Shown here in pieces: positions 643 to 19,874 of a stretch of 25,403 bases of DNA (position 1 is its first letter; each line of letters opens with the position of its first letter). Origin of the DNA: a virus. The position numbers and the translations under genes were made by a program. Below the pieces are notes generated by a model. The model worked only from the letters and a program-made list of their open reading frames with translations, did no database searches and was not told where the DNA came from. Location of the stretch: the IMG/VR virus record IMGVR_UViG_3300042863_002861, positions 1-25,403 of that record. One strand, written 5' to 3'.

Positions 643-668
643 CTTTATTCCGTAATGGTTATGAGGAT

Positions 669-677: not shown

Positions 678-734
678 TAATTTTTACAATCTTGAAATAT
701 TATTCTCAAAAAAGTAAATAATACTACCTATTTG

Positions 735-3143: not shown

Positions 3144-3149
3144 ATCATG

Positions 3150-3158
3150 TTATACACT
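3150..3158 (-). promoter_or_regulatory. AGTGTATAA box, 6 bases from ATG 3143
   Basis: Minus-strand AGTGTATAA followed by CATGAT and the ATG. It fills most of the 19-base gap between genes. Read as a -10 element (TATAAC), transcription would begin at or next to the start codon, giving a leaderless mRNA. Confidence 0.6.
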
Positions 3159-3162
3159 GCTT

Positions 3163-3525
3163 TTAACTTAAGGTGCGTAAAAAACCTGAACGCTCTAAGC
3201 TCTTTTTCCGCTGCTCTTCCATAGTTGTTATCTGCTCTGCTGTAAACTTCCTTGACTTCTTCGCAGCCTTTCTTTTGGCCACAACTGTTTTAAATTGGTT
3301 TATCAAAACAGCTTCCAATCTTCTTCTATCAGGAGAAGGTTTAATTCCCTTGTCCATAGCATGGGTTTGGAGATCACCCAAATTCATTTTTGATATAACT
3401 GAAGCGTACACTTTGACATCTTCTGTAGGATATTCGAATTCAGCTTTTGATCTTAAAAAATCAAACACAGATGGGTTTCTACCATTATCTCCGTGCGCAA
3501 CATTCTTCATTTCTTCTTGTTTCAT
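3163..3525 (-). CDS. SAP-like domain protein following the capsid gene
   Basis: A 120-residue, strongly basic protein. Residues about 46-78 (MNLGDLQTHAMDKGIKPSPD...) resemble a SAP-type helix-extended-helix DNA-binding motif: a 'LxxHAxxxGIKPxxDRxxL' pattern followed by a second helix. The C-terminal part is Lys/Arg-rich (KRKAAKKSRKF). It is separated from the capsid gene by a terminator and has its own promoter box (GGTGTATGT) 6 bases before the ATG. A head-associated DNA-binding or completion protein is plausible. The SAP assignment is by eye, and a second methionine at residue 6 is a possible alternative start. Confidence 0.55.
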   Translation of the reverse strand: MKQEEMKNVAHGDNGRNPSVFDFLRSKAEFEYPTEDVKVYASVISKMNLGDLQTHAMDKGIKPSPDRRRLEAVLINQFKTVVAKRKAAKKSRKFTAEQITTMEEQRKKSLERSGFLRTLS

Positions 3526-3531
3526 AAATTG

Positions 3532-3540
3532 ACATACACC
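3532..3540 (-). promoter_or_regulatory. GGTGTATGT box, 6 bases from ATG 3525
   Basis: Minus-strand GGTGTATGT, then CAATTT and the ATG. Same box and same spacing as at 3143, 8967, 9586 and 17598. It lies downstream of the capsid terminator, where a fresh promoter is needed. Confidence 0.6.
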
Positions 3541-3579
3541 AGAAAAAACGAAAAGGCATTTTTATCTATAGAAAAAGAC

Positions 3580-3609
3580 AAAAAAAACGCGAACCCAATT
3601 GGGCTCGCG
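3580..3609 (-). terminator. Rho-independent terminator after the major capsid gene
   Basis: On the minus strand CGCGAGCCC (3609-3601) pairs with GGGTTCGCG (3596-3588), nine pairs with one G-U, around the loop AATT, followed by eight T (3587-3580). It begins 22 bases past the capsid stop codon. The strongest hairpin in the window; it isolates or attenuates the abundant capsid transcript from the neck genes. Confidence 0.9.
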
Positions 3610-3630
3610 TTTTCTTAATTTTACTAATCG

Positions 3631-4737
3631 TTAGAGAACTAGACCAACGATGGCTTTCGAATCAGTAGCGATACGACCTTCTCTACGCTGAGCATAGAAG
3701 CCGAGTTTTTCGCTTCTGCGAACCCACTGGTCATCAGGCTCAACAACAGTCTCGCTACCAACTTCAGCATCGCTTTCGACGATCTTAAGGAAGGCAGGAA
3801 CCGAGAGGTCAAGACCAATGGCAAGCTGTTGAGTTGCAGCACTGAAAGCGGTTTCGCCGCCAGCAGCTGTGTAATAATCATCAAAAAGATATGAGTAAGG
3901 CTGACCTACGCCCATTTCATTTAGAGTGATTAGATTAACACCAAACAACTGAGAGATACCAGCGTTACGATAAATTTCTTCACGTAGGCTATCTGGAGCT
4001 CCAAGAGCAGTGCTTTCGCCATCATTAGGGAAAGCGGCAGTGTTCTGAGGATTATAACTGATGGCACGAATGTCACCTTCGACTTCAGGAGAAATGATAA
4101 GGTGAGTTAAGCCACGACCCGGAGTGGAGGTAGGAGTACCACCGACCCAAGAAGTGCGCAAACGCTTGACTTTAGTCCATAGGGTATTCAAGTCAGCGAG
4201 TTTAAATGTACCAGCAGTGCTACCAGCGTAAACTTGAGCTGTCCCTACTGTACGTGAATTGGCAAGAGAAGCAAGAAGAGTGGCCCAGTTCAAGTATTCG
4301 CTCTTAGCGAGGATTTCTTGGGTCATTCTTTTGATCATTGCAGTCATTACGTCAAGACGAGCGCTCTGAGCATATTGCTTTAGGCAGGAAACAGCAGAGG
4401 TTAGCGAATCAACAGTGAAACGGAAGTCATCCATACCACTTACATGGTTGGTAGCTAGACCACCAGCAATAGTTTCAGACCATACAGTCAACAAGCCTTC
4501 ACCATTTTGCTCGAAAAGATCGAGAGGGATAGAAGGATTGGTGCCGGAATCATAAGTGAACTTCTGATAAACGAGATTAGAAGTTGCAGTTTGGTCTAGC
4601 ACTTGGTCGATGGTAGGGCCAACGAAAGCTGCGAAGACTTCTTGAGCCTGCCATGACTCATCTTTGTTCCGCGAGCCCATGGCTTGCAAAATTTCACGAG
4701 TTTTAGCTTGCTCTTCTTTAGATAGATTAAGTTTCAT
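3631..4737 (-). CDS. Major capsid protein (HK97-fold)
   Basis: This 368-residue protein should form the icosahedral shell. Support is its size and its place directly after the protease-scaffold and decoration genes. A C-terminal motif EKLGFYAQRREGRIATDSKA, running into a hydrophobic VGL end, closely resembles the C-termini of phage capsid proteins as I know them. The N-terminus is helical and charged, as expected for a region in contact with scaffold. Two 60-base lines counted by hand are about 48-52% G+C, against about 30% in the neck genes, suggesting codon adaptation to high expression. A strong terminator follows. The AGTGTA box is not present upstream, so it is probably transcribed with the genes before it. 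Confidence 0.85.
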   Translation of the reverse strand: MKLNLSKEEQAKTREILQAMGSRNKDESWQAQEVFAAFVGPTIDQVLDQTATSNLVYQKFTYDSGTNPSIPLDLFEQNGEGLLTVWSETIAGGLATNHVSGMDDFRFTVDSLTSAVSCLKQYAQSARLDVMTAMIKRMTQEILAKSEYLNWATLLASLANSRTVGTAQVYAGSTAGTFKLADLNTLWTKVKRLRTSWVGGTPTSTPGRGLTHLIISPEVEGDIRAISYNPQNTAAFPNDGESTALGAPDSLREEIYRNAGISQLFGVNLITLNEMGVGQPYSYLFDDYYTAAGGETAFSAATQQLAIGLDLSVPAFLKIVESDAEVGSETVVEPDDQWVRRSEKLGFYAQRREGRIATDSKAIVGLVL

Positions 4738-4760
4738 TTTAAGTTAAATATATATATGGG

Positions 4761-5345
4761 TTAGAGTTCGACCTTAAATAGGGCATAACCATCTGCATCA
4801 GCGGCGCTCAAGAAACGACCGAAAGATGTTCCTTTTGAGTAAACGCCGACAACTCCAGAGCCATTAAGGCAATTATTAATGCCTGAACCCGGAGCAGCGG
4901 TTCCAGTAAATCCTTTCAAGGCTATTAGGCCGCGAGCAAGAATCGGAAGAGCTTCACCTGAAACGACGACTTCTTGTTCAATACGCTCGTATTTAGGGCG
5001 TGAAAGAAAAGATTCTCCGTAAGCATTGGTTTCGCGAACATCATAGAGTGCAACGCCAAGAGGAACAGTGCCTGATGGGGCAGCTTGAACTTTCCACTTA
5101 ACCTCAGAACGGTAAGAAGTTACACGAGCAGGGCCATTGCCATAAGCAGGGCCAGCACCGAGTAGAGGAGTTGGTGGACGATTAGCACCTTGGATAACAT
5201 TTAAGTTACCACTACCACCAGCAACGATAGAAACGAAAGTACCCTTATTTAAGGATGCGACGTTCGCAGAGAAGAAACCATTATAAACTTCATGTTCGTC
5301 ATAATCACGAAATGGTTTAATATTGGGGGACTGAGTTATATTCAT
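4761..5345 (-). CDS. Putative capsid decoration/stabilisation protein
   Basis: A 194-residue protein lying between the protease-scaffold and capsid genes, the usual place for head-decoration proteins. It is Gly/Ser/Ala-rich with predicted short beta strands (GTFVSIVAGGSGNLNVIQGA; GVALYDVRETNAYGESF; VVVSGEALPILARGLIALKGF), and no membrane or catalytic motif is seen. The segment 'PLGVALYDVRETNAYGE' resembles those of phage head-stabilising proteins as I recall them. Its base composition is raised like that of the capsid gene, which fits a protein made in large amounts. An alternative is a minor head protein. Confidence 0.6.
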   Translation of the reverse strand: MNITQSPNIKPFRDYDEHEVYNGFFSANVASLNKGTFVSIVAGGSGNLNVIQGANRPPTPLLGAGPAYGNGPARVTSYRSEVKWKVQAAPSGTVPLGVALYDVRETNAYGESFLSRPKYERIEQEVVVSGEALPILARGLIALKGFTGTAAPGSGINNCLNGSGVVGVYSKGTSFGRFLSAADADGYALFKVEL

Positions 5346-5359
5346 GTATTATAAATTAT

Positions 5360-5896
5360 TTAGTTTGATATTTTAGTTTTGATAGAAGACAAAAACTGTG
5401 TCCAATTTTCGAGTTTGCTTTCTTTCTCTGCTTGAGAATTAGGAACAGCGACGTTAATAGCTGAGCCCTGAACTTCTAGAACAGCGGCAGCTGACTTCGA
5501 CTTCAACAATGGCTTCATATCTTCAAGCCACTCACTGAAATCTTCATCTGATAAACCGAAAATACGCTTTGCAATAGATTTTGATGCGGCTGAATCAATA
5601 TCGAATTGTTCCTTTAAGGACTCAATTCTTTCACTGAATTTAGCCTGATCTTCTTGCGCTTTCAAAGAAGCTCTCAATTCAGATACTTCATCACGAAGTT
5701 GCTGAGATTCGTCTTCAAAATTTTTGATATTAGCTAGAGCATTTTCAAGAGCTTGCTCTTTTTCTGCTTTTTCATTTTTAAGAGCAACGAATTGATCGTT
5801 GGACTTTTCGACTTGTGAAACGACAAAATCTCTCACATCCGAAGCAGCGGCTTCGTGAAGATGGTCGATCAATTCATCTAGATTGGTATACTTCAT
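5360..5896 (-). CDS. Nested scaffold protein from an internal start
   Basis: Predicted 178-residue product (residues 308-485 of the fusion, beginning MKYTNLDELIDHLHEAA), in the same frame as the protease-scaffold. It is supported by an internal CGTGTAATT box exactly 6 bases before this ATG, the same spacing as at five stand-alone genes. It is also supported by a rise in G+C over the scaffold half. The content is a long charged coiled coil with a Lys-rich end, as expected of a capsid scaffold. Phage lambda C/Nu3 is a known precedent for a scaffold gene nested in a protease gene. Expression is an inference. Confidence 0.55.
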   Translation of the reverse strand: MKYTNLDELIDHLHEAAASDVRDFVVSQVEKSNDQFVALKNEKAEKEQALENALANIKNFEDESQQLRDEVSELRASLKAQEDQAKFSERIESLKEQFDIDSAASKSIAKRIFGLSDEDFSEWLEDMKPLLKSKSAAAVLEVQGSAINVAVPNSQAEKESKLENWTQFLSSIKTKISN

Positions 5897-6817
5897 ATGT
5901 ACAATTACACGGGTTTTTTTGTTTAGTGAAATTTTATCAGAAATTATATCAGAAATACTCCCTTCAGACTCTTCTTTATCCATTTCTTCTTCTTCGAATT
6001 CTTTCATCTCATGTTCTAAATCATCTTCTGGCTCTTCTGTTTCTTCTGGCATCTCTTCTTCTATTTTTTCTTGGAAGTCTTGATAATCCATAGAAAGAAT
6101 ACCTTTAACAGCCGCAGCTGGATTTGTAGTAAATGCGCATCCTAAGAAGCGGCAATCATCTCCTATAACTCTATAAATTTCTTCCCCTGTAGGTAAAAAT
6201 CCGCTACCTCCCATTGATGATAAATATTTTGAATATTCTTCTACGATAGCTTCGTCTTCTATAATTTTAGCTTTTCTTAAGTCTTTGCTCCCCACAGCGA
6301 GCTTATAAGTATTAAACCCAACTTCCCAACTTGTAGAGATAGCCTTGTAAGATTCGCTGTCTTCATCTTGAGAATCGAGAAGGAATTTATAAAATGTCTT
6401 GTTTGATATCTTCCAAACAATAGCAGCCAAAGATAAGTTAAATGGATCATTAGTTAATTCTTGTTCAGTTAAAGTCTTGTTTTCACCAAAAGTTGAAAAG
6501 CCATAATTAGTGATAACCCCTACTATATCTTCCCTTGAGTGTTCGATATTCATTGGTTTGAATTTCGTTGACTCAACTAAAATCTTAGCACCTTCGGTAG
6601 TTATACCATCGCCATTTAAATTTATTAAATTAATAACGGCGGCATTAAAGCATGTATAAAGAAGGTCTGGGTTGTTTTTAATTTCTTCTGAATCTGGTAA
6701 TAAAGACTTTAAATCTTCTAGTTCCATACTAGCATTGCTAACGAAACTACCATTCTTTAAAAAATTTCTTTTAAAATCAGCCTTTACTTCAAATCTAGAA
6801 ATATATTTGAACTCCAT
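5360..6817 (-). CDS. Prohead protease fused to scaffold domain
   Basis: A 485-residue fusion. Residues about 1-215 look like a phage prohead serine protease: candidate catalytic His93 in FKPMNIEHSRED and Ser161/Ser163 in AISTSWEVGF. Residues about 255-295 are a very acidic linker, and about 310-450 form a charged coiled coil typical of scaffolds, ending in a basic tail. The protease would mature the prohead and cleave the scaffold. An AGTGTAAAA box lies 7 bases before the ATG. A second box inside the gene precedes an in-frame ATG (residue 308), predicting a separate scaffold product. The scaffold half is GC-richer than the protease half. Catalytic residues are assigned by pattern only. Confidence 0.8.
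   Translation of the reverse strand: MEFKYISRFEVKADFKRNFLKNGSFVSNASMELEDLKSLLPDSEEIKNNPDLLYTCFNAAVINLINLNGDGITTEGAKILVESTKFKPMNIEHSREDIVGVITNYGFSTFGENKTLTEQELTNDPFNLSLAAIVWKISNKTFYKFLLDSQDEDSESYKAISTSWEVGFNTYKLAVGSKDLRKAKIIEDEAIVEEYSKYLSSMGGSGFLPTGEEIYRVIGDDCRFLGCAFTTNPAAAVKGILSMDYQDFQEKIEEEMPEETEEPEDDLEHEMKEFEEEEMDKEESEGSISDIISDKISLNKKTRVIVHMKYTNLDELIDHLHEAAASDVRDFVVSQVEKSNDQFVALKNEKAEKEQALENALANIKNFEDESQQLRDEVSELRASLKAQEDQAKFSERIESLKEQFDIDSAASKSIAKRIFGLSDEDFSEWLEDMKPLLKSKSAAAVLEVQGSAINVAVPNSQAEKESKLENWTQFLSSIKTKISN
5903..5911 (-). promoter_or_regulatory. Internal CGTGTAATT box, 6 bases from in-frame ATG 5896
   Basis: Minus-strand CGTGTAATT, then GTACAT and an in-frame ATG inside the protease-scaffold gene. 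It matches the other boxes at GTGTAATT (compare 8967) and has identical spacing, although here it lies within coding sequence. Confidence 0.55.
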
Positions 6818-6824
6818 GACAATA

Positions 6825-6833
6825 TTTTACACT
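6825..6833 (-). promoter_or_regulatory. AGTGTAAAA box, 7 bases from ATG 6817
   Basis: Minus-strand AGTGTAAAA, then TATTGTC and the ATG. It occupies the 22-base gap between the endolysin stop and the protease-scaffold start, so it could start the head-gene transcript. Confidence 0.55.
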
Positions 6834-6839
6834 TAAAAA

Positions 6840-7661
6840 TCAAGAAACGAAAAACTTTAATAAATTTTCAGAAGATAAGAAACCTTGAGTCTTCAAAGTT
6901 CCTCTACCAAACTTATTGAATTTCCTCATATAAATTCCATCTCCTGCTCTCTGAAGGTTTGGATCAGATGTTTCACCTGATGACGTATTCCCTTCTAAAG
7001 TAACAAGCATATCTCCCTTTATATCAAAGACAATACCTGTATGCCCTGAATCTGTTTCCCCAAATTTGGCCAACCATATACTGCCTAAAGAAGGGGTTAT
7101 AGATAAAATATTTTTAGACTTAAGTAGTCTAACATTAGTCATTACATGAGCGGTCCAGTTATTTATAAATTTTGCAGAAGATAATTTACAATCTTGAAGA
7201 GCCATTGTAACAAATGCCCCAACTGCGGCAGAACAATACGGCGCTCCGGGTGTCCAGCCTTCTATTTCTCTCATATAAGAAGATAATTTTAAAGACTGTT
7301 CTTTTTGTATGCCTTTTATATCAGGGTCATCCCATTCAGAGTTAGGTTTTATCTCGACTAAACCTTCAAATTCTTGAGCCCTTTTTAATAAATTTTTTAT
7401 AAATTCATTAGTTAATGAGCGGTCAACAGTTGCCCCTCTTTCTTCAGAAAAAGAAAAGCTATCTTTTAAAAGAGATTCAATTGTTTTACTTCCTATTATT
7501 CCATCAGCTTGCAGTCCTTTTAATTTCTGATATTGTATAACGTATTTCTGAGTTTCAGCAGAAAACTCCCCATTAGTAGATTTTATAGGATACCCAATTT
7601 TTTTTAAGAAAAGTTGAATAAGTCTAACTTCATTCCCCGAGGACCCTAATTTTAATAACAT
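6840..7661 (-). CDS. Endolysin: peptidoglycan-binding domain plus CHAP-like hydrolase
   Basis: A 273-residue lytic enzyme that should cut the host peptidoglycan. Residues 3-65 are a PG_binding_1-type domain (LGSSGNEVRLIQLFLKKIGY...GEFSAETQKYVIQYQ...ADGIIGSKT). The C-terminal domain (about 95-260) looks like a CHAP/NlpC-type cysteine hydrolase: Cys143 in PYCSAAVGAFV, His207 in SGHTGIVFD, and Glu223/Asn225 in TLEGNT. There is no signal peptide, so a holin is needed; a holin-like gene lies four genes upstream in the same block. Binding-domain-first order is unusual but known. The exact bond cleaved (amidase or endopeptidase) is not resolvable. Confidence 0.85.
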   Translation of the reverse strand: MLLKLGSSGNEVRLIQLFLKKIGYPIKSTNGEFSAETQKYVIQYQKLKGLQADGIIGSKTIESLLKDSFSFSEERGATVDRSLTNEFIKNLLKRAQEFEGLVEIKPNSEWDDPDIKGIQKEQSLKLSSYMREIEGWTPGAPYCSAAVGAFVTMALQDCKLSSAKFINNWTAHVMTNVRLLKSKNILSITPSLGSIWLAKFGETDSGHTGIVFDIKGDMLVTLEGNTSSGETSDPNLQRAGDGIYMRKFNKFGRGTLKTQGFLSSENLLKFFVS

Positions 7662-7662
7662 A

Positions 7663-8001
7663 TTATTGTTTATTTAGTTTAGAAATTTCCATAAATATTG
7701 CCATATATTCAGGAGTCAAAATAAAATTATTTTCATAAGGCATTAAGCCTTCGGCTTTTTTAACGGGAGGAGTAAGTTTATTTCCGAATTTTTCTGTCAA
7801 TAAGGAGTATCTTTCAGCTGCTCCGGGAGTTATTAAGAATCCAACATTATCAATATAAGTGATAAGCCCAGAATTCTGTTGTTGTTTATCCCAGCTAGGT
7901 TGAGACTCTTTTATAGGGGGAGGAACTATAGTTACCGAATTATTATCGGAAACACAGGAGTTCAAAAGCAAAGCTAGTAATATAGAATTAAAAAATTTCA
8001 T
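7663..8001 (-). CDS. Small lipoprotein of the lysis cassette
   Basis: A 112-residue protein with a short signal peptide (MKFFNSILLALLLNSC) and lipobox LNSC, predicting lipidation at Cys16. The mature part is Pro-rich near the start (IVPPPIKESQP) and has no known domain. It lies directly before the endolysin and overlaps the coiled-coil gene upstream by four bases. Phage spanins often comprise a lipoprotein (o-spanin, Rz1-like) paired with a membrane coiled-coil protein. This one is longer than most Rz1 proteins, so spanin is an inference from signal and position. Confidence 0.65.
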   Translation of the reverse strand: MKFFNSILLALLLNSCVSDNNSVTIVPPPIKESQPSWDKQQQNSGLITYIDNVGFLITPGAAERYSLLTEKFGNKLTPPVKKAEGLMPYENNFILTPEYMAIFMEISKLNKQ

Positions 8002-8252
8002 TTAGCTATTATTTTTCTGATTTCTTCTAAAGATAATTCTCTCTTTTCGCCTACGTTATTAACCACATCTGCGATAAGTTTTTCATCTCTATCCTTCTGA
8101 TTTATTTCTTGTTGATTAACTTCCCTTTCTTTAAATACTTCCTCGTTTTTTATTTCTATTTCTTTCTTTTTAACTTCTCTGTTAATACGAAAAATTGATA
8201 GTAATTCAGATACAGCTTTAAAAATATATTCCATAATTTTTTTCCAGTTCAT
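7998..8252 (-). CDS. Coiled-coil protein, possible inner-membrane spanin partner
   Basis: An 84-residue protein with an amphipathic/hydrophobic start (KIMEYIFKAVSELLSIFRI) followed by a highly charged helix (about residues 24-65, rich in Lys/Glu) likely to be a coiled coil. It sits between two lipoprotein genes, abutting the upstream stop (TAA then ATG) and overlapping the downstream gene by four bases. A short membrane-associated coiled coil beside a lipoprotein is reminiscent of Rz/Rz1 spanin pairs, but the N-terminal segment is weakly hydrophobic, so membrane insertion is uncertain. Confidence 0.5.
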   Translation of the reverse strand: MNWKKIMEYIFKAVSELLSIFRINREVKKKEIEIKNEEVFKEREVNQQEINQKDRDEKLIADVVNNVGEKRELSLEEIRKIIAK

Positions 8253-8708
8253 TTACAGATATTTGCTAGAGGCTGATTTACATCCAGAAGAAATTCTATT
8301 TAAAGCACTTATAAGAATTTTTCTTCTACTAGACTCTTCGAGTTGAGCACTTTGACCGTAAAAATCACCATATAAAAGTATCATATTCATAGCGAACTCA
8401 TTCCATAGAGAAGAGCTAGGAATATATTTGGAAATAATACTAGAGAAAGCTTCTACTGATATATCGTCTGCTACTGTTAAGTTCTCTATAACATAAGATA
8501 CATCATAAATAATTTGAGCAGCTTTAGCTCTCTTTTCTACAGATGCCTCCTGAGATAAAACCACTTGTGTTATATAACTTGAAGATGATTTTAAATACAC
8601 TGTAGATTTTGACAGACTATTATAAAAAGCTGCTTGCTGAGTTGAAGAGCAGCTGGATGTGAACATTGCTATTAAAAAGCAAAGCACTATTGTTTTAAAA
8701 TTTTTCAT
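8253..8708 (-). CDS. Second lysis-cassette lipoprotein
   Basis: A 151-residue protein with an N-terminal signal (MKNFKTIVLCFLIAMFTSSC) and a relaxed lipobox ending at Cys20. The mature part is largely alpha-helical, Ser/Ala-rich, and ends in a basic helix. Its start overlaps the end of the holin-like gene by 14 bases. Envelope location is well supported; a role in lysis (spanin-like) or superinfection exclusion is inferred only from context. The lack of a Leu at -3 of the lipobox is noteworthy, a form more tolerated in some non-enterobacterial hosts. Confidence 0.6.
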   Translation of the reverse strand: MKNFKTIVLCFLIAMFTSSCSSTQQAAFYNSLSKSTVYLKSSSSYITQVVLSQEASVEKRAKAAQIIYDVSYVIENLTVADDISVEAFSSIISKYIPSSSLWNEFAMNMILLYGDFYGQSAQLEESSRRKILISALNRISSGCKSASSKYL

Positions 8709-8967
8709 ATTTAACTTTTTCTATTTTTTCTTCTAAAACTTTAACACTTTCTTCAGAGTCTGCCATGTCTCTACTTTTCCGTCCCATTTGAATTAGTCCG
8801 GCCCCAATTAGAAAAGCTAAAATTTGACGAACTAGGTTTTCCCAATATTCAGGTAAGGGCTCTATACTCTCTGGATAAAAGGATATAAAAGCACATATAC
8901 CAGACACTAAACCTGCTAGAGTTGTTCTCCAACTTGGGCCTAAAAGTTTTTCTAGTGATCCTTTCAT
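8695..8967 (-). CDS. Holin-like membrane protein
   Basis: A 90-residue protein with two membrane segments (about 14-31, TTLAGLVSGICAFISFY, and 48-62, ILAFLIGAGLIQMG) joined by a short loop and followed by a highly charged C-terminal tail. The segment LLGPSWRTTLAGL is typical of small phage holins as I recall them. It shares the block with the endolysin. An AGTGTAATT box lies 6 bases before its ATG, so the lysis genes may have their own promoter. Holin would make pores that release the endolysin. Function is inferred from topology and context. Confidence 0.7.
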   Translation of the reverse strand: MKGSLEKLLGPSWRTTLAGLVSGICAFISFYPESIEPLPEYWENLVRQILAFLIGAGLIQMGRKSRDMADSEESVKVLEEKIEKVKYEKF

Positions 8968-8973
8968 ATCTTT

Positions 8974-8982
8974 AATTACACT
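8974..8982 (-). promoter_or_regulatory. AGTGTAATT box, 6 bases from ATG 8967
   Basis: Minus-strand AGTGTAATT, then AAAGAT and the ATG of the holin-like gene. It fills the 16-base gap after the PAS gene stop. Confidence 0.6.
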
Positions 8983-8983
8983 T

Positions 8984-9586
8984 TTATAAAAGCAGAATGC
9001 CGAAAAATTTTTCTATGCTTCCATCCATGTTTTTAATAGGCCAAGCTACTATAGAAACAGGCTTACAATCTTCTGTATTTAAAACAGTATTAAAATGGAA
9101 CTCTCTTTTCTGATCTATGCATGATAGCCATTCTTCTTTCATTTCTTTTCTCATATCTTTGTCTACAATGCTTAGCCATCCACTGCCGACAGCTTGCTCA
9201 AAAGTAAAGTCTGTTATGTCCATCCATTTTTTGCTTACGAAAGTATATTCTCCTTTAGAGTTTGCCTCAAAATAAGCTATACCCAAAGATGAGCTTATAA
9301 TTCTTATTTTCTGCTCTGTATGATTAAGACTATTTTCCATTCTATTCATAACATCTCTTAAAGAGTTTCCTCCATTTGGTCTAAACTCCGCTGTAACTCT
9401 TTTAAGCTCAGGTATAAGATCAAGAAATTCTGTTACAGATTTATTGGCACATGATATGCTTGCAAAAATACTTTTCAAAACTTTAAATCCGCCTATACCA
9501 AATACTATCAAGCCTGTAACAGCGGCTAAAACTTCCTGCCAATGTATAACACTGATATCGAAATTTTGGATAAAAGATAAAAACAT
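8984..9586 (-). CDS. Membrane-anchored PAS-domain protein
   Basis: A 200-residue protein with one N-terminal membrane segment (about 17-45, VLAAVTGLIVFGIGG), a helical linker with the sequence NGGNSLRDVMNRMENSLNHTEQ, and a PAS fold at about 97-199. The PAS is recognisable from GIAYFEANSKGEYTFVSKKW, GSGWLSIVDKDMRKEMKEEW and a terminal WPIKNMDGSIEKFFGI. No kinase, HTH or nuclease domain follows. It heads the lysis block with its own AGTGTAATA box 6 bases before the ATG. A sensor of a small ligand, redox or membrane state that tunes lysis is one inference; related PAS proteins in phages are known to me but their function is not. Confidence 0.75.
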   Translation of the reverse strand: MFLSFIQNFDISVIHWQEVLAAVTGLIVFGIGGFKVLKSIFASISCANKSVTEFLDLIPELKRVTAEFRPNGGNSLRDVMNRMENSLNHTEQKIRIISSSLGIAYFEANSKGEYTFVSKKWMDITDFTFEQAVGSGWLSIVDKDMRKEMKEEWLSCIDQKREFHFNTVLNTEDCKPVSIVAWPIKNMDGSIEKFFGILLL

Positions 9587-9592
9587 AACAGG

Positions 9593-9601
9593 TATTACAC
9601 T
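9593..9601 (-). promoter_or_regulatory. AGTGTAATA box, 6 bases from ATG 9586
   Basis: Minus-strand AGTGTAATA, then CCTGTT and the ATG of the PAS gene. It lies in the 68-base divergent gap with the intein-like gene at 9655; the upstream side is T-rich but shows no clear -35. Confidence 0.6.
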
Positions 9602-9654
9602 GAACAGATCTTTTTAAGAAACAAAAGTTTATGAGTTATGTAATAGTTAAATAA

Positions 9655-11293: not shown

Positions 11294-11301
11294 GCATATA
11301 A

Positions 11302-11310
11302 TTATACACC
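11302..11310 (-). promoter_or_regulatory. GGTGTATAA box, 8 bases from ATG 11293 (phoH)
   Basis: Minus-strand GGTGTATAA. It faces an identical plus-strand copy at 11319-11327 across 8 bases, making a perfect 9-bp inverted repeat between two divergent genes. This supports the phoH start at 11293. Confidence 0.6.
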
Positions 11311-11318
11311 ACAATTCA

Positions 11319-11327
11319 GGTGTATAA
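11319..11327 (+). promoter_or_regulatory. GGTGTATAA box upstream of the beta-helix gene
   Basis: Plus-strand GGTGTATAA, 24 bases before the ATG at 11352, mirror copy of 11302-11310. The leader would be about 15-20 bases, unlike the leaderless spacing elsewhere, and contains no Shine-Dalgarno. Confidence 0.5.
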
Positions 11328-11351
11328 AAATATAAGTTAATCAACAACTTT

Positions 11352-12536: not shown

Positions 12537-12554
12537 ATACAATTATTTAAATAA

Positions 12555-12563
12555 CTTGTATAA
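12555..12563 (+). promoter_or_regulatory. Weak AGTGTA-like box before the zinc-ribbon/sigma operon
   Basis: Plus-strand CTTGTATAA, 21 bases before the ATG at 12585; it matches the consensus only in the TGTATAA part. It may be a different (middle or host sigma) promoter; no clear -35 is visible. Confidence 0.3.
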
Positions 12564-12584
12564 ACTTAACACGATAATAAAAAC

Positions 12585-12941
12585 ATGCCAAATATTTATT
12601 GCCCATCGTGCGGAACTGGAAATAAATTCCTGTATGAAAAACCTAAAGTTTGTAACTCCTGCAAATTCGTTTTTGCCGCACCTCTAGTAAGTGCAGAAAG
12701 ATTAAAAAACTACGAACAAGTAAAGCAGGTTAAAAGAGTCGTAAATAATCAAGAACTTCAAATAGCAGCTTTAAGAAATATGAAGCTAGATATTGAAAAA
12801 ATTGAACCAACAAAACTTGGATCAATGATAGGTACAGATTTAAATAGCGAGTCTTTCCAAAGGAAGAAAATCTCTAAAGAGGAGTATAAAGAAAAGGTTT
12901 TCAAATCAAGTCCTGTTTCCCTAGATGATGATCAAATTTGA
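12585..12941 (+). CDS. Zinc-ribbon protein upstream of the sigma factor
   Basis: A 118-residue protein. Two Cys pairs, Cys6-Cys9 (CPSC) and Cys23-Cys26 (CNSC), form a C4 zinc ribbon at the N-terminus; the rest is charged and probably helical or disordered. Its last 17 bases overlap the sigma-factor start, so the two are almost certainly co-translated. Zinc ribbons are common in transcription or nucleic-acid-binding accessory proteins, and a partner role for the sigma factor is an inference from this coupling. It has no Shine-Dalgarno; the start is a short run of A (AAAAAC) then ATG. Confidence 0.65.
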   Translation: MPNIYCPSCGTGNKFLYEKPKVCNSCKFVFAAPLVSAERLKNYEQVKQVKRVVNNQELQIAALRNMKLDIEKIEPTKLGSMIGTDLNSESFQRKKISKEEYKEKVFKSSPVSLDDDQI

Positions 12942-13602
12942 AGATAAAATAAAATGTATTGACGCTTTAATACAAAAAAATAGAGGCCGTTGGCATCTTT
13001 CTGATATAGGCGGTTTTGGTTTTGAGGATGTTGCTCAAACTATAAGATTGCATATTTATAATAAGTGGTCTCAATGGGATCAAAAAAGACCATTCGAATA
13101 TTGGTGTAATAAAATAATAATAAACCAAATAAAGAATACTGTAAGAAATAGATATTCGAGAGATGCTCCTCCATGTTCAACATGTCCATTCGATAGAGGC
13201 ATTGATTTATGTGGGTACACAAAAAGTGGTATAAAATGTGAACAGTGTCCATCATTTAAAAAATGGGCGAAGAAAAAGCAAAATAAGTTCTTTTTAAAAA
13301 CAGCTTTATCAATAGATAGCGAAAACTTTAAGGAAACACAAGATTTCTCTGACCCAATAACCTCTATAAGATTAGAGTCTTGCGTTATAAAATTTCATAA
13401 ATTTATATGCCAGTTCCTTAACCCTAAAATGGTAAACTTCTACGGCTTGATATATATAGAGAATTTGAAAGACGAAGAAGTTATCGAAAGATTGAAAAAT
13501 ACAAATGGCAAGGGAATAACAAAGAGGCAACTAATAACAATAAGGAAGAATTTGCAAAATATAGCTAAGAAAAAAATAAGCGAATTCGACTCTGAAGAAT
13601 GA
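12925..13602 (+). CDS. Phage sigma factor with cysteine-rich insertion
   Basis: A 225-residue protein that looks like a small sigma-70-family factor. Residues 33-78 resemble region 2: FEDVAQTIRLHIYNKWSQWDQKRPFEYWCNKIIINQIKN-type pattern with the basic NTVRNRY end. Residues 84-108 hold five cysteines (84, 87, 96, 105, 108), probably zinc-binding. Residues about 155-215 resemble region 4, ending in a basic helix (GITKRQLITIRKNLQNIAKK). It would direct the host RNA polymerase to phage promoters. It overlaps the zinc-ribbon gene by 17 bases and the next gene by four. The AGTGTA boxes are the natural candidate targets. Two adjacent ATGs (12925, 12928) are both possible. Confidence 0.75.
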   Translation: MMIKFEDKIKCIDALIQKNRGRWHLSDIGGFGFEDVAQTIRLHIYNKWSQWDQKRPFEYWCNKIIINQIKNTVRNRYSRDAPPCSTCPFDRGIDLCGYTKSGIKCEQCPSFKKWAKKKQNKFFLKTALSIDSENFKETQDFSDPITSIRLESCVIKFHKFICQFLNPKMVNFYGLIYIENLKDEEVIERLKNTNGKGITKRQLITIRKNLQNIAKKKISEFDSEE

Positions 13603-14741
13603 ACTCATCAATAAGAGAAAATCTAACTAATAAATTAGGTAGAAAAATAGATAGAAAAAAGGTAAATCTTTGTGATAAAATAATTTGTCATCATAAGTAC
13701 AATCTTGATTTAATTCAACAAGAATACTTAGAAGACAATAAGAATTGCAAAGAGAGCAACATATTGTCGCTTGCTCAAGACGTTTACAAGAATCCCAAAC
13801 TGATAGAGCAGACAGAAGAGTTTAAGAATGTAAGAAAATTTTTACAAAAATTATGGAGAGGAGGAGAATATGATAACTATACAGATGAGCAGTTAGATTT
13901 TTTGTTTGAGAATGCCGAATCTCTAAGTACAAAAGAGATAGCAAAAGCTTTATTTCCTGAAAAAGAATATATTGTATCAATAAGAACAATAACTTCTCTT
14001 TTAGATGCTGCTGGATTTAGGGAAGTAAAAGACGAGGACAAAATAGAAAGGACTAATACTAGATATAATTCTCCCAGAACAGATCTCCAAGTTATAAATC
14101 TGATAAATAGATCTGATCATTCAGCAAAATATGATACTGATAAAATTGATACGAGAAAGAAAGATTCTATAGCAGCTGTAAAGAAATTCTTGTCAGCCCC
14201 ACGTTTCGTAGAGATGATATCTATGATTACAAATGTAAAACACAGAGAAGTTTTTGAAACAGAGTTTGTTAAAGCTGTTTATAATAAACCAGATCTTAAT
14301 TCTGATGAAGTTAATTTATACATAGGCTTAGCATTAGAATATGTAACTCTTATTGAGATAAGACAGCAGATAACAATTTTAAATGATAGGTTAGCAGAAT
14401 CTATGTCAGATGATGAAGAAGGTCGTAAATTTACGATGTCTTTATCTGAAGCATTAAAAGATAAAACTGCTGCATATAATCATTGTCTAGAGAGAACTTT
14501 GAAAATGACCCGCTCATTGAGTGGAGATAGAATCAAGAAATTAGAAAAACAAGCTTTAGCTAATCAAAGCTTAGCGCAGTTTATCGAACTCGTTCAAGAT
14601 GAAAAAGAAAGAAGGAGAATGATATTAATAGCTAAAGCAGAAGAGTTTAAAGTTAAAGAAAAAATACAAGAACTTGAAAATTTCTCGGAGCTTTTTGTTG
14701 AAGTTTACGGGGTTGGAAAAGAGGAGGTATTTTCTCTCTAA
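13599..14741 (+). CDS. Putative small terminase subunit or packaging DNA-binding protein
   Basis: A 380-residue, charged protein. A helix-turn-helix-like stretch is at about residues 108-140 (SLSTKEIAKALFPEKEYIVSIRTITSLLDAAGF), followed by a long helical region (about 160-370) with no known enzymatic motif. It is translationally coupled to the sigma gene (4-base overlap) and the nuclease gene (1-base overlap), two genes before the large terminase. Small terminases usually sit there, bind DNA through an N-terminal HTH and oligomerise through helices. It is longer than a typical small terminase, so this is an inference; another DNA-binding packaging cofactor is possible. Confidence 0.45.
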   Translation: MNSSIRENLTNKLGRKIDRKKVNLCDKIICHHKYNLDLIQQEYLEDNKNCKESNILSLAQDVYKNPKLIEQTEEFKNVRKFLQKLWRGGEYDNYTDEQLDFLFENAESLSTKEIAKALFPEKEYIVSIRTITSLLDAAGFREVKDEDKIERTNTRYNSPRTDLQVINLINRSDHSAKYDTDKIDTRKKDSIAAVKKFLSAPRFVEMISMITNVKHREVFETEFVKAVYNKPDLNSDEVNLYIGLALEYVTLIEIRQQITILNDRLAESMSDDEEGRKFTMSLSEALKDKTAAYNHCLERTLKMTRSLSGDRIKKLEKQALANQSLAQFIELVQDEKERRRMILIAKAEEFKVKEKIQELENFSELFVEVYGVGKEEVFSL

Positions 14742-15658
14742 TGAAATGCTTGGAATGTTTAGATGATTTCTCTACTGAGAGAGGCTTGCATTTGCATGTT
14801 TCAAAAAAACATAAAATATCTTTACAAGATTATTATCATAAATTTTTTCCTAGATTCGATTTATTTTCAAATGAAAAAATAGAATTTAAAAATTTTGAAG
14901 AATATTTTATTACTGATTTTAATTCAAAGGAGAATTTTGCTAAATGGTGCTTCTCGGAAGATGCTATAGTAGTAAGAGAATATGTAAAAAAAGCTTTTAG
15001 AAAAAGATGTTCTAAAAAAGGAACTCTTTTTGTGCCATCTAATATAGAATTGAAAAGTTTATTTTTACCATCTTGGACAGGATTAGTAAAAATATTTGGA
15101 AGTAAAGAAACTGTTGTAAAAGAATTCTCGAAAGAAAATTTGAAATTGAAATATGATTATATTTCCGAACCTTTTTTCCATGATGATGAACCTAATATAC
15201 TTATAGATACAAGAGAACAAAATGCTCTACAATTTAAAGATTCTAAAAAAATGAAATTAAGTTGTGGTGACTATACTACAACTGGACCTTTATTCTCCGA
15301 TGTTTTTATCGAAAGAAAAAGTTTAGAAGATTTAGTCTCGACTCTCACTGCGGGAGCTCAAAGATTCGATAGAGAGATCAGTAGAGCGGAAGACTTCGGA
15401 CAGTACCTCGTTGTATTAGTAGAGAATAAAGTCAGCAATGCAATAAACTATAGCCCAGAAAATAGTTTTAGTAAGTATATAAATGGTAAATTTGTATTTT
15501 TTAAAATACGAGAAATCTGCTCTAAATATAAAAACATACAATTTTTATTTTCTGACTCAAGAGAAAACTCCCAAGCTCTGATGATAAAAATTTTTAAAAT
15601 GAAAGATAAGGTAAGAAATTACGATTTAGAATTTCTTAAAGATTTTAATTTGATATAA
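14741..15658 (+). CDS. C2H2 zinc-finger plus ERCC4-family nuclease
   Basis: A 305-residue protein. Residues 3-24 form a C2H2-type finger (Cys3, Cys6, His19, His24). Residues about 153-235 are an ERCC4/XPF-type nuclease core: Asp156 and the REQ motif (158-160), GDY (176-178) and the ERKSLEDLVS motif (Glu191-Arg192-Lys193, Asp197). This family cuts branched or flap DNA. It is directly upstream of the large terminase, only one base away from its ATG, so it may process branched replicating DNA before packaging. The 12-base gap from a GGAGGT stretch makes it doubtful that this acts as Shine-Dalgarno. The family assignment is firm; the packaging role is inferred from context. Confidence 0.8.
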   Translation: MKCLECLDDFSTERGLHLHVSKKHKISLQDYYHKFFPRFDLFSNEKIEFKNFEEYFITDFNSKENFAKWCFSEDAIVVREYVKKAFRKRCSKKGTLFVPSNIELKSLFLPSWTGLVKIFGSKETVVKEFSKENLKLKYDYISEPFFHDDEPNILIDTREQNALQFKDSKKMKLSCGDYTTTGPLFSDVFIERKSLEDLVSTLTAGAQRFDREISRAEDFGQYLVVLVENKVSNAINYSPENSFSKYINGKFVFFKIREICSKYKNIQFLFSDSRENSQALMIKIFKMKDKVRNYDLEFLKDFNLI

Positions 15659-15659
15659 T

Positions 15660-17537
15660 ATGTGGAATGAAGGAGCACATCCTGTTATACTCAGGAAATC
15701 TACAAATGATCAGCTGGCAGAAATTAAAGGTATACTTTCTGAATCTGAAGCTCAACAATGGTTTGCTAGATACTGTTTAGCTAATCCAGCTTTCATGGTT
15801 TACCTTCTGACCAGAGTTCAACTCGATCCTGTTCAGGATTTATTATTGAGATCGTTTATTTTAAAAGATTATTGTCTTCTTGTAGCTGGCCGTGGATTCT
15901 CTAAATCTTTCGTAATCTCTTTATTTTGTATAATTTACGCTTTAGGCAATCCCGGAGTTAAAATTGGTATAGCTTCAGGAACTTTCCGACAGTCAAAATC
16001 TATCATGAAGCAAATTGATACTTTCGCTTCTCATCCAAAGAACGGAACTTTCTTAAGATCTTGTATTACAAAACAACTTTCAAAATCTAGCGATGCTTGG
16101 TCAATGGAAATTGGGTATTCATCTATAACAGCTATTCCATTAGGTAAGGTTAGAGGTTACCGCTTCAATGTTCTAATTGTTGATGAATTATTAGTTGTCA
16201 GTAAAGAGATTATAGATTCTATTCTTAAACCGTTCTTGATGGTTCGCCAAGACGGTCCTCAGCATGAAGAGATTACAAATGCTCAAAAAGTTTTAGTGGA
16301 AAATGGAGTTTTAAAACCAGAGGAAGTTCAACAGTTTTCTTCAAATAACAAAATTATAGGTCTATCTTCCGCTAGTTATAAATTTGAATCTCTTTATAGA
16401 GATAACTATGTACCTTATGTTAAAACGATTTTAGATCCTAATGCTGAAAATGTAAACCATTGTGTTTTCAGAATGTCTTACAGAGCTGCACCTAAAGGAT
16501 TCATGGAAGAATCAGCTATCGAAGACATGAGAAGAACGATGTCTAAATCAATGTTCGATAGAGAACTTGAAGCTATATTCGGAGATGATACTGGAGGTTA
16601 CTTTTCAGCGAAAGCCATAGAAGAAGCCAGCGTTAAACTAGGGGAATATCCTATAGTAAAAATCGTAGGAGACGCAGATAAGAAATATATTTTATCAATA
16701 GATCCTAACTACAATAACTCTGAGACTTCAGATGATTTCGCAATGGCTATCCTTGAGTTGAACGAAGAAGATGAATCTGCAATACTCGTTCATGCTTATG
16801 CTCTTCCGAATAGCACAAACGAAAAAAGATGCTTATATCTTAAGTATATTTTAGAAAAATTTAATATTGTTTATGCGATTATAGACAATAGTGGTGGCCC
16901 AGCCTTTTTACAGATAGCAAAAGAATTTAAATTAATCCCAAGAGAGCTTCACCTTTTTGATCATGACTTTTTAAACTATAATTCTCAAGAAGGTATACTT
17001 TCTTCAAAAAGCAGTTATGATCCTAAAAATGGAAAGATAGTTCACTCTCAAGCTTTCGGTGTCGGAGGATGGTTAAGATTCTCAAATGAGAATTTACAAT
17101 GGATGATTGAGAAGAAAAAGATAAAATTTGCAGCTCCAGTATTCAATGATTGCGATTTTCAAAATGCTATAAAAGAAAATTTTCCGATAGAAGATTTACA
17201 TTACTCAAAAAATCAATCAATAAGTAAAGATGAAATAAGAGAAATCGCTAAAAATGTTCAAGAAGAAATGAAAGTGGATTTCCTCGAACACTTGGGCGAC
17301 ATGATCAACTTGACAAAAAGGGAGTGCTCGCTTATAGAGGTCTCGACCAGCGTTAATGGGAATCAACAATTTGACTTGCCAGCTACAATGAAAAGAGACA
17401 ATAATCCTCACAGAGCAAGAAGAGACTCTTATACAGTTTTGCTTCTTGGTAGCTGGGGTGTCAAATGTTATTTTGATATGCACAGAGAACAAGAAATAAA
17501 TACGTCTTTCGATTTCGTTCCGAGAATGTTTAGGTAA
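15660..17537 (+). CDS. terL: Terminase large subunit (packaging ATPase and nuclease)
   Basis: A 625-residue packaging motor. The ATPase domain has Walker A AGRGFSKS (76-83) and Walker B VLIVDE (171-176). The C-terminal RNase H-like nuclease has acidic residues in LSIDPNY (Asp348), AIIDNSGG (Asp409) and RRDSYT (Asp589). Length is normal for this protein. No intein or intron is visible; the frame is continuous. It starts one base after the nuclease stop codon (ATAATATG). It is followed by a 60-base gap with a hairpin and a promoter-like box before the portal gene. It would cut concatemeric DNA and drive it into proheads through the portal. Confidence 0.92.
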   Translation: MWNEGAHPVILRKSTNDQLAEIKGILSESEAQQWFARYCLANPAFMVYLLTRVQLDPVQDLLLRSFILKDYCLLVAGRGFSKSFVISLFCIIYALGNPGVKIGIASGTFRQSKSIMKQIDTFASHPKNGTFLRSCITKQLSKSSDAWSMEIGYSSITAIPLGKVRGYRFNVLIVDELLVVSKEIIDSILKPFLMVRQDGPQHEEITNAQKVLVENGVLKPEEVQQFSSNNKIIGLSSASYKFESLYRDNYVPYVKTILDPNAENVNHCVFRMSYRAAPKGFMEESAIEDMRRTMSKSMFDRELEAIFGDDTGGYFSAKAIEEASVKLGEYPIVKIVGDADKKYILSIDPNYNNSETSDDFAMAILELNEEDESAILVHAYALPNSTNEKRCLYLKYILEKFNIVYAIIDNSGGPAFLQIAKEFKLIPRELHLFDHDFLNYNSQEGILSSKSSYDPKNGKIVHSQAFGVGGWLRFSNENLQWMIEKKKIKFAAPVFNDCDFQNAIKENFPIEDLHYSKNQSISKDEIREIAKNVQEEMKVDFLEHLGDMINLTKRECSLIEVSTSVNGNQQFDLPATMKRDNNPHRARRDSYTVLLLGSWGVKCYFDMHREQEINTSFDFVPRMFR

Positions 17538-17542
17538 ATTTT

Positions 17543-17578
17543 AAGGTTAAAATTAATTTATAGAGGTTTTTTAACCTT
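17543..17578. terminator. Hairpin between terL and the portal gene
   Basis: A perfect 10-bp inverted repeat, AAGGTTAAAA (17543-17552) and TTTTAACCTT (17569-17578), with a 16-base loop. There is no following T tract on the plus strand. It may be a weak terminator or mRNA 3'-end stabiliser for terL; the portal box lies 4 bases beyond. Confidence 0.4.
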
Positions 17579-17582
17579 TAAA

Positions 17583-17591
17583 AGTGTATAA
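17583..17591 (+). promoter_or_regulatory. AGTGTATAA box, 6 bases from ATG 17598 (portal)
   Basis: Plus-strand AGTGTATAA, then CAGTAT and the ATG. It is identical to the minus-strand box at 3143, including the 6-base gap, although the genes are on opposite strands and far apart. It gives an independent promoter to the portal gene. Confidence 0.6.
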
Positions 17592-17597
17592 CAGTAT

Positions 17598-19427
17598 ATG
17601 GCGCGTAAACCTAAAGCCGACTCTGTAGTCGTAAATTCAGACCCTTTTACTCCGAAGTTTATTTCAGAATCTGCAAGAGATTTAAGAAATAGAGGAACGA
17701 ATAGTTTTCAAAATCCTCTATCTGGTTTGTCAGGGGAAATAGAAAATATTAATAAAGGGGTATCTCCTTTTTCTAGGGATAACACTGGAACCTTAAGCGC
17801 TCAACAGGCAATTGTGCTTTGTCAAAAAGCTTATTGGAATGTAGCTATCTTCAGAAATACGATAGATATTCAAACTGAATTTGCGAATTCTAAATTAAGT
17901 TTCAGAGGCAAGAATAAAAGATCTATAAAGTTCTTTAATGAATGGTACAAGAAAATAAATGGATGGTCTTTATCTGAAAGATTCTTCAGAGAGTGGTTTC
18001 GTTCTGGAAATGTTTTTATTTATAAGTTTTTGTACAACATAACAAATATTGAAGTAAATAAAATGTCTAGAGCAGAGGTTGCGAAAAAAATACCTTTGCG
18101 TTATACTATTTTAAATCCTGCGGATATGAGAGCTGAAGGCTCTGCTACGTTTGTTAATTTCAATTACTATAAGATGCTTAACTCCTACGAGTTAGCAAGA
18201 TTGAAAGTTCCAAAGACAGAAGATGAAAAAAGGTTTATGGATTCTCTACCCGTAAAAATTAGAGATGAAATTAAAAGAGGCCAACTCCCAGAGATACCTA
18301 TCGACACGGAATATTTAACAGCTGTATTCTGCGGTAAACAAGACTACGAAGCTTTATCGGTCCCAATGTACTACCCTGTACTTTTTGATATTGATTTAAA
18401 ATTAGAATTTAAGAAAATGGAGAAGGTTATAGCCAGAACAGCTGACTATATGATCCTTCTGATTACGGCAGGTGATAAAGATAGAGATGCGAATACTAAT
18501 TCTAGAATTTTATCTGCATTACAAGATCTTTTTGAAATGGAGAGTGTGGGTAGGGTATTAGTTTCTGACTATTCCACAAAAGCAGAATTCGTTCTACCAG
18601 ATTTAAATAAAATTTTAGGACCAGAGAAATATCAGGTTGTTAATCAAGATATTGCAAATGGTTTGATGAATATATTCTGGGGAGATGAGAAGTATGCGAA
18701 CTCGATGATAAAAATAAAAGTCTTTCTAGAGAGATTAAGCTCTGCTAGACAAGCCTTTTTAAATAATTTCTTGATTCCAGAAATGGAAATGATTGCTAAT
18801 GAATTAGGGTTCACAGAAATACCAGAGCCAGTTTTTGATGAGGTAGATCTCAAGGAAGAGATCGAGTATATGAAAGTCTACACAAGACTTGCTGAAATTG
18901 GAATGTTGACACCCGAAGAACTCTTTGATGCATTCGAGACTCACTCTCTTCCTCTCTCTGAAAACTCCGTAGAAGCTCAAAATAAATTTAAAGAACTCAA
19001 GGATAAAGGTCTTTACGAACCAATTATAGGCGGCCAGAAAAAAGAAGGGCTCGGACAGTCAGTTGGTAGACCAGCAGGAACGAAAGCTCCCCAAACAACT
19101 AAAAAAGTTTCTCCGATAGGAGCATCTAAATTTAGTTTACAAAAAATATCCGATAATATCAAACTTGTTAATGATCTATCTGAAGCTGTAGAGTCTAAAT
19201 ATAGAGAGATAAACAGTATAAAGAGACTTAGCTCTAAACAGAAAGATCTCTGTTGGAGCGTAACGGAGTCTATTATTTCTTCTAAAAATTCCAACGAGTG
19301 GCAGGAGAGTATCGCCACCTTTATAGAGAACCCTATCGTCAGCCCCGACGAGAAGACCCTTAATATCGCAGCAGAGCATAATATTTCTCTATTCTTAGCA
19401 GGTTTGTTAAAGCAGTCTGAAATTTAA
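17598..19427 (+). CDS. Portal protein
   Basis: A 609-residue protein following the large terminase, in the normal place of the portal. Its make-up fits: an N-terminal clip/wing region with SFQNPLSGLSGEIENINKG and WYKKINGWSLSERFFREWFRSGN, a stem/crown region (about 285-400), and a long Lys/Thr-rich region followed by helices at the C-terminus (about 470-609). It would form the dodecameric ring through which DNA is packaged. The C-terminal ~100 residues beyond the core (from GRPAGTKAPQTTKKV) look like an added extension of unknown role. No membrane segment. It has its own AGTGTATAA box. Confidence 0.85.
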   Translation: MARKPKADSVVVNSDPFTPKFISESARDLRNRGTNSFQNPLSGLSGEIENINKGVSPFSRDNTGTLSAQQAIVLCQKAYWNVAIFRNTIDIQTEFANSKLSFRGKNKRSIKFFNEWYKKINGWSLSERFFREWFRSGNVFIYKFLYNITNIEVNKMSRAEVAKKIPLRYTILNPADMRAEGSATFVNFNYYKMLNSYELARLKVPKTEDEKRFMDSLPVKIRDEIKRGQLPEIPIDTEYLTAVFCGKQDYEALSVPMYYPVLFDIDLKLEFKKMEKVIARTADYMILLITAGDKDRDANTNSRILSALQDLFEMESVGRVLVSDYSTKAEFVLPDLNKILGPEKYQVVNQDIANGLMNIFWGDEKYANSMIKIKVFLERLSSARQAFLNNFLIPEMEMIANELGFTEIPEPVFDEVDLKEEIEYMKVYTRLAEIGMLTPEELFDAFETHSLPLSENSVEAQNKFKELKDKGLYEPIIGGQKKEGLGQSVGRPAGTKAPQTTKKVSPIGASKFSLQKISDNIKLVNDLSEAVESKYREINSIKRLSSKQKDLCWSVTESIISSKNSNEWQESIATFIENPIVSPDEKTLNIAAEHNISLFLAGLLKQSEI

Positions 19428-19428
19428 A

Positions 19429-19450
19429 AAGATTTAAAAATAAAAATCTT
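19429..19450. repeat. Short hairpin after the portal gene
   Basis: Perfect 7-bp inverted repeat, AAGATTT (19429-19435) and AAATCTT (19444-19450), loop of 8 A/T bases. On the plus strand it is followed by CGAAAAAAA, not T, so it is not a standard terminator; function unknown. Confidence 0.3.
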
Positions 19451-19461
19451 CGAAAAAAATC

Positions 19462-19489: not shown

Positions 19490-19512
19490 GGTGGTGTCAG
19501 TATATTTTCATT

Positions 19513-19850: not shown

Positions 19851-19874
19851 TTATATATAAAACCTGATTAAAAA

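Follow-up and report, generated by a model that had tools for sequence, protein, structure and literature searches.

The virus record IMGVR_UViG_3300042863_002861 of the IMG/VR collection, 25,403 bases long, was analysed in its entirety (hereafter, the window); it is classed as linear and is probably a fragment. Herein, a short recurring box with the core AGTGTA is proposed to act as a single -10-like promoter element for an extracytoplasmic function (ECF)-type sigma factor of the phage, encoded by the open reading frame (ORF) at 12925–13602, giving mostly leaderless messages for the first genes of late units. A probability of about 0.74 is assigned to this reading. That the box is a promoter is well supported by its conservation across the phage family, its fixed distance from start codons, its exclusive partnership with ATG, the terminator upstream of one box and its co-occurrence with the sigma gene.

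Seven boxes lie 15–17 nucleotides (nt) before a start codon, measured from the first base of the box. Their coordinates refer to the 8-base core, and their retention was followed in two relatives, G012 (about 82% DNA identity to the window over the main shared 19 kb) and G011 (about 68%). On the minus strand, AGTGTATA at 3151–3158 and GGTGTATG at 3533–3540 each stand 15 nt before their genes (ATG 3143 and ATG 3525; gap of 6) and are kept in G012. The box AGTGTAAA at 6826–6833, located 16 nt before ATG 6817 (gap of 7), precedes the first gene of the probable capsid operon and is kept in both relatives. The sequence AGTGTAAT is found twice, at 8975–8982 before ATG 8967, the first gene of a unit with an endolysin-like gene, and at 9594–9601 before ATG 9586; in both cases the distance is 15 nt with a gap of 6, and both are kept in G012, the second having a counterpart in G011 as well. 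Upstream of the PhoH gene, GGTGTATA at 11303–11310 lies 17 nt before ATG 11293 (gap of 8) and is retained in G012 and G011. On the plus strand, AGTGTATA recurs at 17583–17590, 15 nt before the portal ATG at 17598 (gap of 6), and is kept in 12 of 12 relatives searched. These seven sites had been listed in an earlier note on this DNA, and all of its positions and gaps proved correct (6, 6, 7, 6, 6, 8 and 6; five of 6, one of 7 and one of 8).

Two further sites were added. The eighth, GGTGTATA at 11319–11326 on the plus strand, is the divergent partner of the PhoH box and lies 33 nt before ATG 11352. The ninth, AGTGTATG at 670–677 on the minus strand, overlaps the first ATG of the ORF at 298–672, where the distance, counted to an alternative start at 642, would be 35 nt. 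Four other motif matches (8594, 13103, 24326 and 24462) are located within genes, where chance or codon usage seems to account for them. The boxes stand before the first gene of a unit and not before overlapping genes, so the observation that translationally overlapped genes lack the box holds. The claim that the box serves most virion genes stands only by way of operons, as just seven genes are boxed directly and one of these, PhoH, is not a virion gene. The boxed units are regarded as late from their gene content, namely portal, capsid operon and lysis.

The recurrence of the box before start codons is confirmed as real. By raw count the motif is only weakly enriched: the window has 13 sites where 7.3 would be expected, a number also reached in 5 shuffles out of 100; this count was set aside as too weak a proof, and a positional test was needed. 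By position the signal is far above chance: among the 36 window genes, 7 have RGTGTA 15–18 nt upstream of the start (Poisson P ~7e-13), whereas dinucleotide shuffling of the upstream regions, repeated 2000 times, gave 0.063 on average and never more than 2. The consensus of the box region is aaAwwRGTGTAww. In agreement with the earlier note, no constant -35 element is visible, since among 51 aligned non-redundant sites no column exceeds 0.35 bit beyond an A-rich stretch at -5 to -2. Scoring that dispensed with gene calls gave ATG peaks 15, 16 and 17 nt after RGTGTA (19, 15 and 17 occurrences vs about 4 at other offsets), and no peak was found for GTG or TTG in the same scoring. Such an ATG-only partner would be favoured by leaderless initiation, although ATG is also the commonest start codon in such genomes.

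Comparison with the relatives shows that the box is better conserved than its surroundings. Between the window and G012, the seven boxes are identical at 48 of 49 bases, while the spacers from box to ATG match at 38 of 59 and the 30 nt upstream of the boxes at 157 of 210. In G011, four boxes stand at the same spacing before genes (portal, the homolog of the gene at 6817, PhoH and the counterpart of the gene at 9586). Furthermore, a relative of 104 kb carries 7 box-before-ATG sites, as opposed to 0 for a reversed-pattern control. Genes beyond the window were called mechanically, as ORFs beginning with ATG.

A candidate for the factor that reads the box, which the earlier note did not name, is found in the window as well: the predicted ECF-like sigma factor at 12925–13602 on the plus strand, situated between a zinc-ribbon ORF and a run of genes leading to nuclease, terminase and portal. 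As a sigma factor, its product would bind core RNA polymerase and direct promoter-specific transcription. Its product matches Sigma70_r2 (PF04542) at 24.6 bits, above the curated cut-off of 24, and six homologs, five divergent ones and that of G011 (75% identical), also exceed this cut-off with 24.8–30 bits. For the G011 homolog, a match to phrog_1740, a family of phage sigma factors, was also obtained (7e-5). An AlphaFold model built from 27 homologs reached a pLDDT of 76, whereas an earlier model from 5 similar sequences was poor (pLDDT 58.8). When the model was compared by Foldseek with the PDB, the 50 best matches were almost all sigma factors or complexes of sigma with RNA polymerase, those in rows 3 and 9 bearing titles of integrative models, and the best match was ECF sigma H of M. 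tuberculosis (probability 1.00). Among viral models, many phage sigma factors were matched, one of them being the ECF sigma from Cronobacter phage GAP52. The protein consists of region 2, followed by a cysteine cluster (conserved C84, C87, C96 and C108) and a C-terminal helical part. This last part, with helices at 167–178, 183–194 and 200–220 in the position of region 4 and with no Pfam region-4 match, could be region 4 by position and helix pattern.

The gene directly upstream of the sigma gene, at 12585–12941 on the plus strand, encodes a zinc-ribbon protein, and a small protein with two CxxC pairs is found at this place in every one of the 31 loci in which the upstream gene was readable. 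In five of these 31 loci, a box precedes the zinc-ribbon gene itself, so that the sigma unit could activate itself. The invariant neighbour is a possible partner of the sigma factor, whether as a co-activator, an anti-sigma factor or an assembly factor.

Sigma gene and box travel together through a divergent phage family. A sigma profile found 283 viral contigs, of which the best-scoring 80 were fetched, and the contigs with homologs come from both freshwater and marine sources. From these viruses, 69 loci were chosen only for carrying a divergent sigma homolog (32–39% identity). A de novo positional search for 6-mers upstream of the starts in these loci returned GTGTAA (66 vs 5.6) and AGTGTA (65 vs 6.4) as the top words, located at -14 to -17. 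After similar upstream regions had been removed, the box was present at -18 to -14 in 39 of 366 non-redundant starts, against 0.54 expected. In sigma-less controls, 80 marine T4-like contigs of similar guanine-plus-cytosine (GC) content, only 2 of 201 starts were boxed (0.9 expected), and five named phages gave 1 of 258 (about 0.6 expected). A coarser presence test, which asked for GTGTA 12–25 nt before any ATG gene on contigs of at least 8 kb, was positive in 36 of 36 sigma loci but also in 20 of 36 controls; it was judged too loose and was not used.

According to the proposed mechanism, the sigma factor from 12925–13602 would redirect the core of the host RNA polymerase to the late genes and would recognise the AGTGTA box as the sole promoter element, with transcription beginning some 6–8 bp downstream of it. 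With an ATG 15–17 nt after the first base of the box, the mRNA would then start at or within 1–2 nt of the AUG for the first gene of most units, and the minority of boxes farther from their ATG would give short leaders. The spacing is borrowed from the E. coli phage phiEco32, in which transcription starts 6–8 bp downstream of the element tAATGTAtA and no -35 element is used (PMC8948821); applied to the 15–17 nt class, this rule places the start on the ATG or within 1–2 nt of it. In a survey of bacterial genomes, a TA-like -10 signal about 10–12 nt before the start codon was taken as the sign of leaderless genes (PMC3160421), and the TA of the box begins at -11 in the 15-nt class. Shine-Dalgarno sites are rare throughout the window. 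A Shine-Dalgarno core was found at 0 of 39 boxed starts compared with 41 of 314 unboxed ones (P 0.014).

It is rather unlikely that the box is a promoter whose transcripts start further downstream or upstream, so that the messages carry short leaders instead of being leaderless. The boxes at 11319 and 670 imply leaders, as do boxes 20–27 nt from the ATG that occur in other clades, and the start-site rule of phiEco32 derives from another sigma factor. Against this, the peak at 15–17 nt is sharp, and with transcription starting 6–8 bp after the box, a leader that includes a ribosome site would not fit into this distance, and the boxed starts lack Shine-Dalgarno cores. The earlier proposal of leaderless promoters is thus retained in part. 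Its promoter component is well supported, and leaderless messages are likely, by analogy with phiEco32, for boxes 15–17 nt from the ATG; not every box fits, given the distances of 33–35 nt at 11319 and 670, and leaderlessness would concern only the first gene of each operon. The remark that leaderless expression would be unusual for a tailed phage was overstated, since phage transcripts have been described as "often leaderless" (PMC5312081) and leaderless phage messages are not new in principle.

It is improbable that the box instead belongs to the host RNA polymerase, with a housekeeping or alternative sigma factor, and that the phage sigma serves other genes. The box does resemble a -10 element, and in a high-GC region of G012 TGTAA lies 17 bp after TTGAC, as in host-type promoters. 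The boxes in question, however, have no -35 element, and they follow the phage sigma through homologs of 32–39% identity on freshwater and marine contigs. Ordinary host sigma-70 promoters were also considered as a candidate and rejected, the consensus-like sites in positions 1–20000 of the window being at chance level (79 vs 76.9 in shuffles). The only match of the sigma profile in the genome collection was a phage-like contig, L122 (PBIO01000004.1), in a Halobacteriovorax metagenome-assembled genome; its presence there hints weakly at Bdellovibrio-like predators as hosts of these phages. The contig has the same gene order, the portal and PhoH genes are each preceded by GTGTATA, and CGTGTA is found in it as a changed form of the box. 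In this sole candidate host genome the box precedes an ATG at 77 sites and the reversed control pattern does so at 60, which is little excess.

A translation signal in the mRNA, that is, a non-canonical ribosome-binding element without promoter function, is very unlikely. The box ends 6–8 nt before the ATG, as a Shine-Dalgarno sequence would, and few Shine-Dalgarno sites are present in the window genes; yet only the first genes of units are boxed, and other boxes lie 33–41 nt from starts. Those located 33–35 nt from a start codon are too far away for a ribosome-binding element. We know of no evident complementarity of the box to the anti-Shine-Dalgarno sequence CCUCC, which also counts against a translation signal. 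A promoter is favoured by the divergent dyad formed by the box at 11319–11326 and the PhoH box, whose 8-bp spacing is conserved in relatives while the sequence of the spacer has changed. It is likewise favoured by the box at 670–677, which is retained in G012 although a different gene starts there, about 41 nt downstream, and by the way in which the box tracks the sigma factor.

Further support for a promoter comes from an intrinsic terminator at 3581–3616 on the minus strand, between the capsid gene and the box at 3533–3540, with a stem of 16 pairs and a T tract. In G012 compensatory changes have preserved the pairing of its stem (CGCGAGCCC/GGGTTCGCG vs CGCAAGTCC/GGGCTTGCG), and a conserved terminator at this place means that the next gene needs a new start. 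The assignment rests on stem length and covariation because the motif scanner showed no excess of terminators in the window over shuffles (9 vs 9.5). A terminator-like hairpin is also found directly after the PhoH gene, at 10463–10497 on the minus strand.

Least probable of all is that the box is an operator of a dimeric regulator and no promoter element: the dyad TATACACY-N8-RGTGTATA at 11303–11326 is a perfect and conserved inverted repeat, and related GGTGTAAC iterons form arrays in G012, but each of the other boxes is only one half-site, and its distance from the start codon and its orientation are constant, a constraint that would be unnecessary for an operator.

The arrays themselves lie in a 45% GC region of G012 at 28.5–36.5 kb (L035:8500–16500), beyond the extent of the window; this region holds most of the 67 RGTGTAAC copies, all on the minus strand. 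Many of these copies are 17-bp tandem iterons, GGTGTAACATGGYGCAT, that adjoin promoter-like sequences of the form TTGAC(A/G)-N17-TGTAAC, with TTGACA-N17-TGTTAC facing them on the other side; these resemble arrays of operators that serve small and probably early genes. It also contains 73-bp tandem repeats. A further relative, G010 (L037/L038), has 28 RGTGTAAC copies, and the paired iteron was not found in seven other relatives searched.

Several points weigh against the proposed sigma-box system. The link between sigma factor and box relies on co-occurrence within one family and on analogy, and no close relative lacking the sigma gene was found in which the box could be seen to vanish with it. 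Each Foldseek match is weak by itself (best E 1.7e-3), and a pTM of 0.39 leaves the domain arrangement uncertain. Homology between this sigma and phiEco32 gp36 was not detected by hhalign (probability 0.1, E 0.64), although the two may be distantly homologous. Finally, the leaders implied by the boxes at 11319 and 670 are at least about 20 nt long, and not all boxed genes would therefore be leaderless.

Known phage systems share individual features with the one proposed here. The late promoters of T4 consist of a -10 element only, TATAAATA, and are read by the phage sigma factor gp55. The combination of a -10-only promoter with a phage sigma is thus similar, whereas the element differs, and the marine T4-like contigs lack the AGTGTA signal. 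The middle and late promoters read by phiEco32 gp36 are alike in having a single similar element (tAATGTAtA vs aRGTGTAww), no -35 element and an ECF-type phage sigma, and in serving virion genes (PMC8948821). However, the matches found to the phiEco32 element are mostly separated from the gene by about 40–47 nt that include a Shine-Dalgarno site, while the box described here lies at 15–17 nt and abuts the ATG; its core, RGTGTA, is similar to the phiEco32 element but not the same. In addition, phi32_gp36 is reported to lack region 4 (PMC8948821), whereas the present sigma has a C-terminal helical part in that position as well as a cysteine cluster. It can therefore not be counted with confidence among the sigma factors of the phiEco32 family.

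Phage 7-11 likewise uses an ECF-like sigma of its own (SaPh711_gp47) for late genes, and the sigma of GAP52, a phage grouped with it (PMC8948821), is among the best viral fold matches; its consensus, unlike the single element found here, is bipartite, GTAAtg-(16)-aCTA (PMC8948821). Leaderless bacterial genes with a TANNNT motif resemble the boxed genes in that a -10-like element lies about 10–12 nt before the start codon and the mRNA begins at the AUG (PMC3160421). Those genes are read by host sigma-70, in contrast to the distinct, highly specific GTGTA core and the phage sigma considered here. Thermus phage P23-45 provides a case of -35-independent late transcription in a tailed phage, with extended -10 middle and late promoters, but it retains the host sigma-A, whose region 4 is displaced by gp39, and employs no phage sigma (PMC7403470).

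The window has a GC content of about 33%. Its genes include those for the terminase large subunit (15660–17537), the portal (17598–19427), an endolysin-like protein (6840–7661) and PhoH (10529–11293). The ORF at 3631–4737 probably encodes the major capsid protein, a name given from its position and size, and its product shares 37% identity with the protein encoded at the equivalent place in contig L048. Among the matches listed, terminase and portal are only 21–28% identical to proteins of named phages, no DNA match to named relatives was found, and neither Rfam families nor tRNAs were found in the window. The portal has a distant match in Bacillus phage Slash and its relatives; direct homology of the sigma protein to the ECF sigma of Slash was considered, and hhalign did not detect it.

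Other features of the window were recorded in passing. The capsid gene and the neighbouring stretch (3631–5000, minus strand) reach a GC content of 0.458, compared with about 0.30–0.34 across most of the window, perhaps through codon selection in a highly expressed protein. On the plus strand, the ORF at 9655–10536 (293 amino acids) shows a weak match to terminase large subunit profiles (phrog_19299, 7.7e-7) even though a full terminase is present at 15660–17537; instead of a terminase, it may be a segment resembling an intein or a homing endonuclease. The boxed gene at 8984–9586 on the minus strand encodes a product with an N-terminal hydrophobic stretch and a weak PAS match (PAS_4, E 0.0012, below the cut-off), which is unusual in a phage. 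At 20687–22958 on the plus strand, a polysaccharide pyruvyl transferase-like protein is encoded near a glycosyltransferase, amid small genes without assigned function.

Altogether, it may tentatively be suggested that an uncultured lineage of aquatic phages possesses a dedicated leaderless late programme, composed of a zinc-finger-bearing ECF-like sigma whose gene always directly follows a zinc-ribbon gene, a single box and a start on the AUG. A homolog of this sigma was not detected in any named phage of the collection searched: tblastn with three sigma proteins gave no match in 50,697 phage records. If the suggestion is true, the first message of each late unit would be translated by a route independent of Shine-Dalgarno sites, and the phage would keep its virion genes apart from those of the host in transcription as well as in translation. 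The predicted regulatory code of box, sigma and spacing rule would allow operons and start codons to be called from sequence alone. The system would be a small and testable example of a promoter that at the same time sets where translation begins. It would also offer a candidate pair of one-element promoter and sigma factor, together with a zinc-ribbon protein, the invariant neighbour, whose part in transcription is open to testing.

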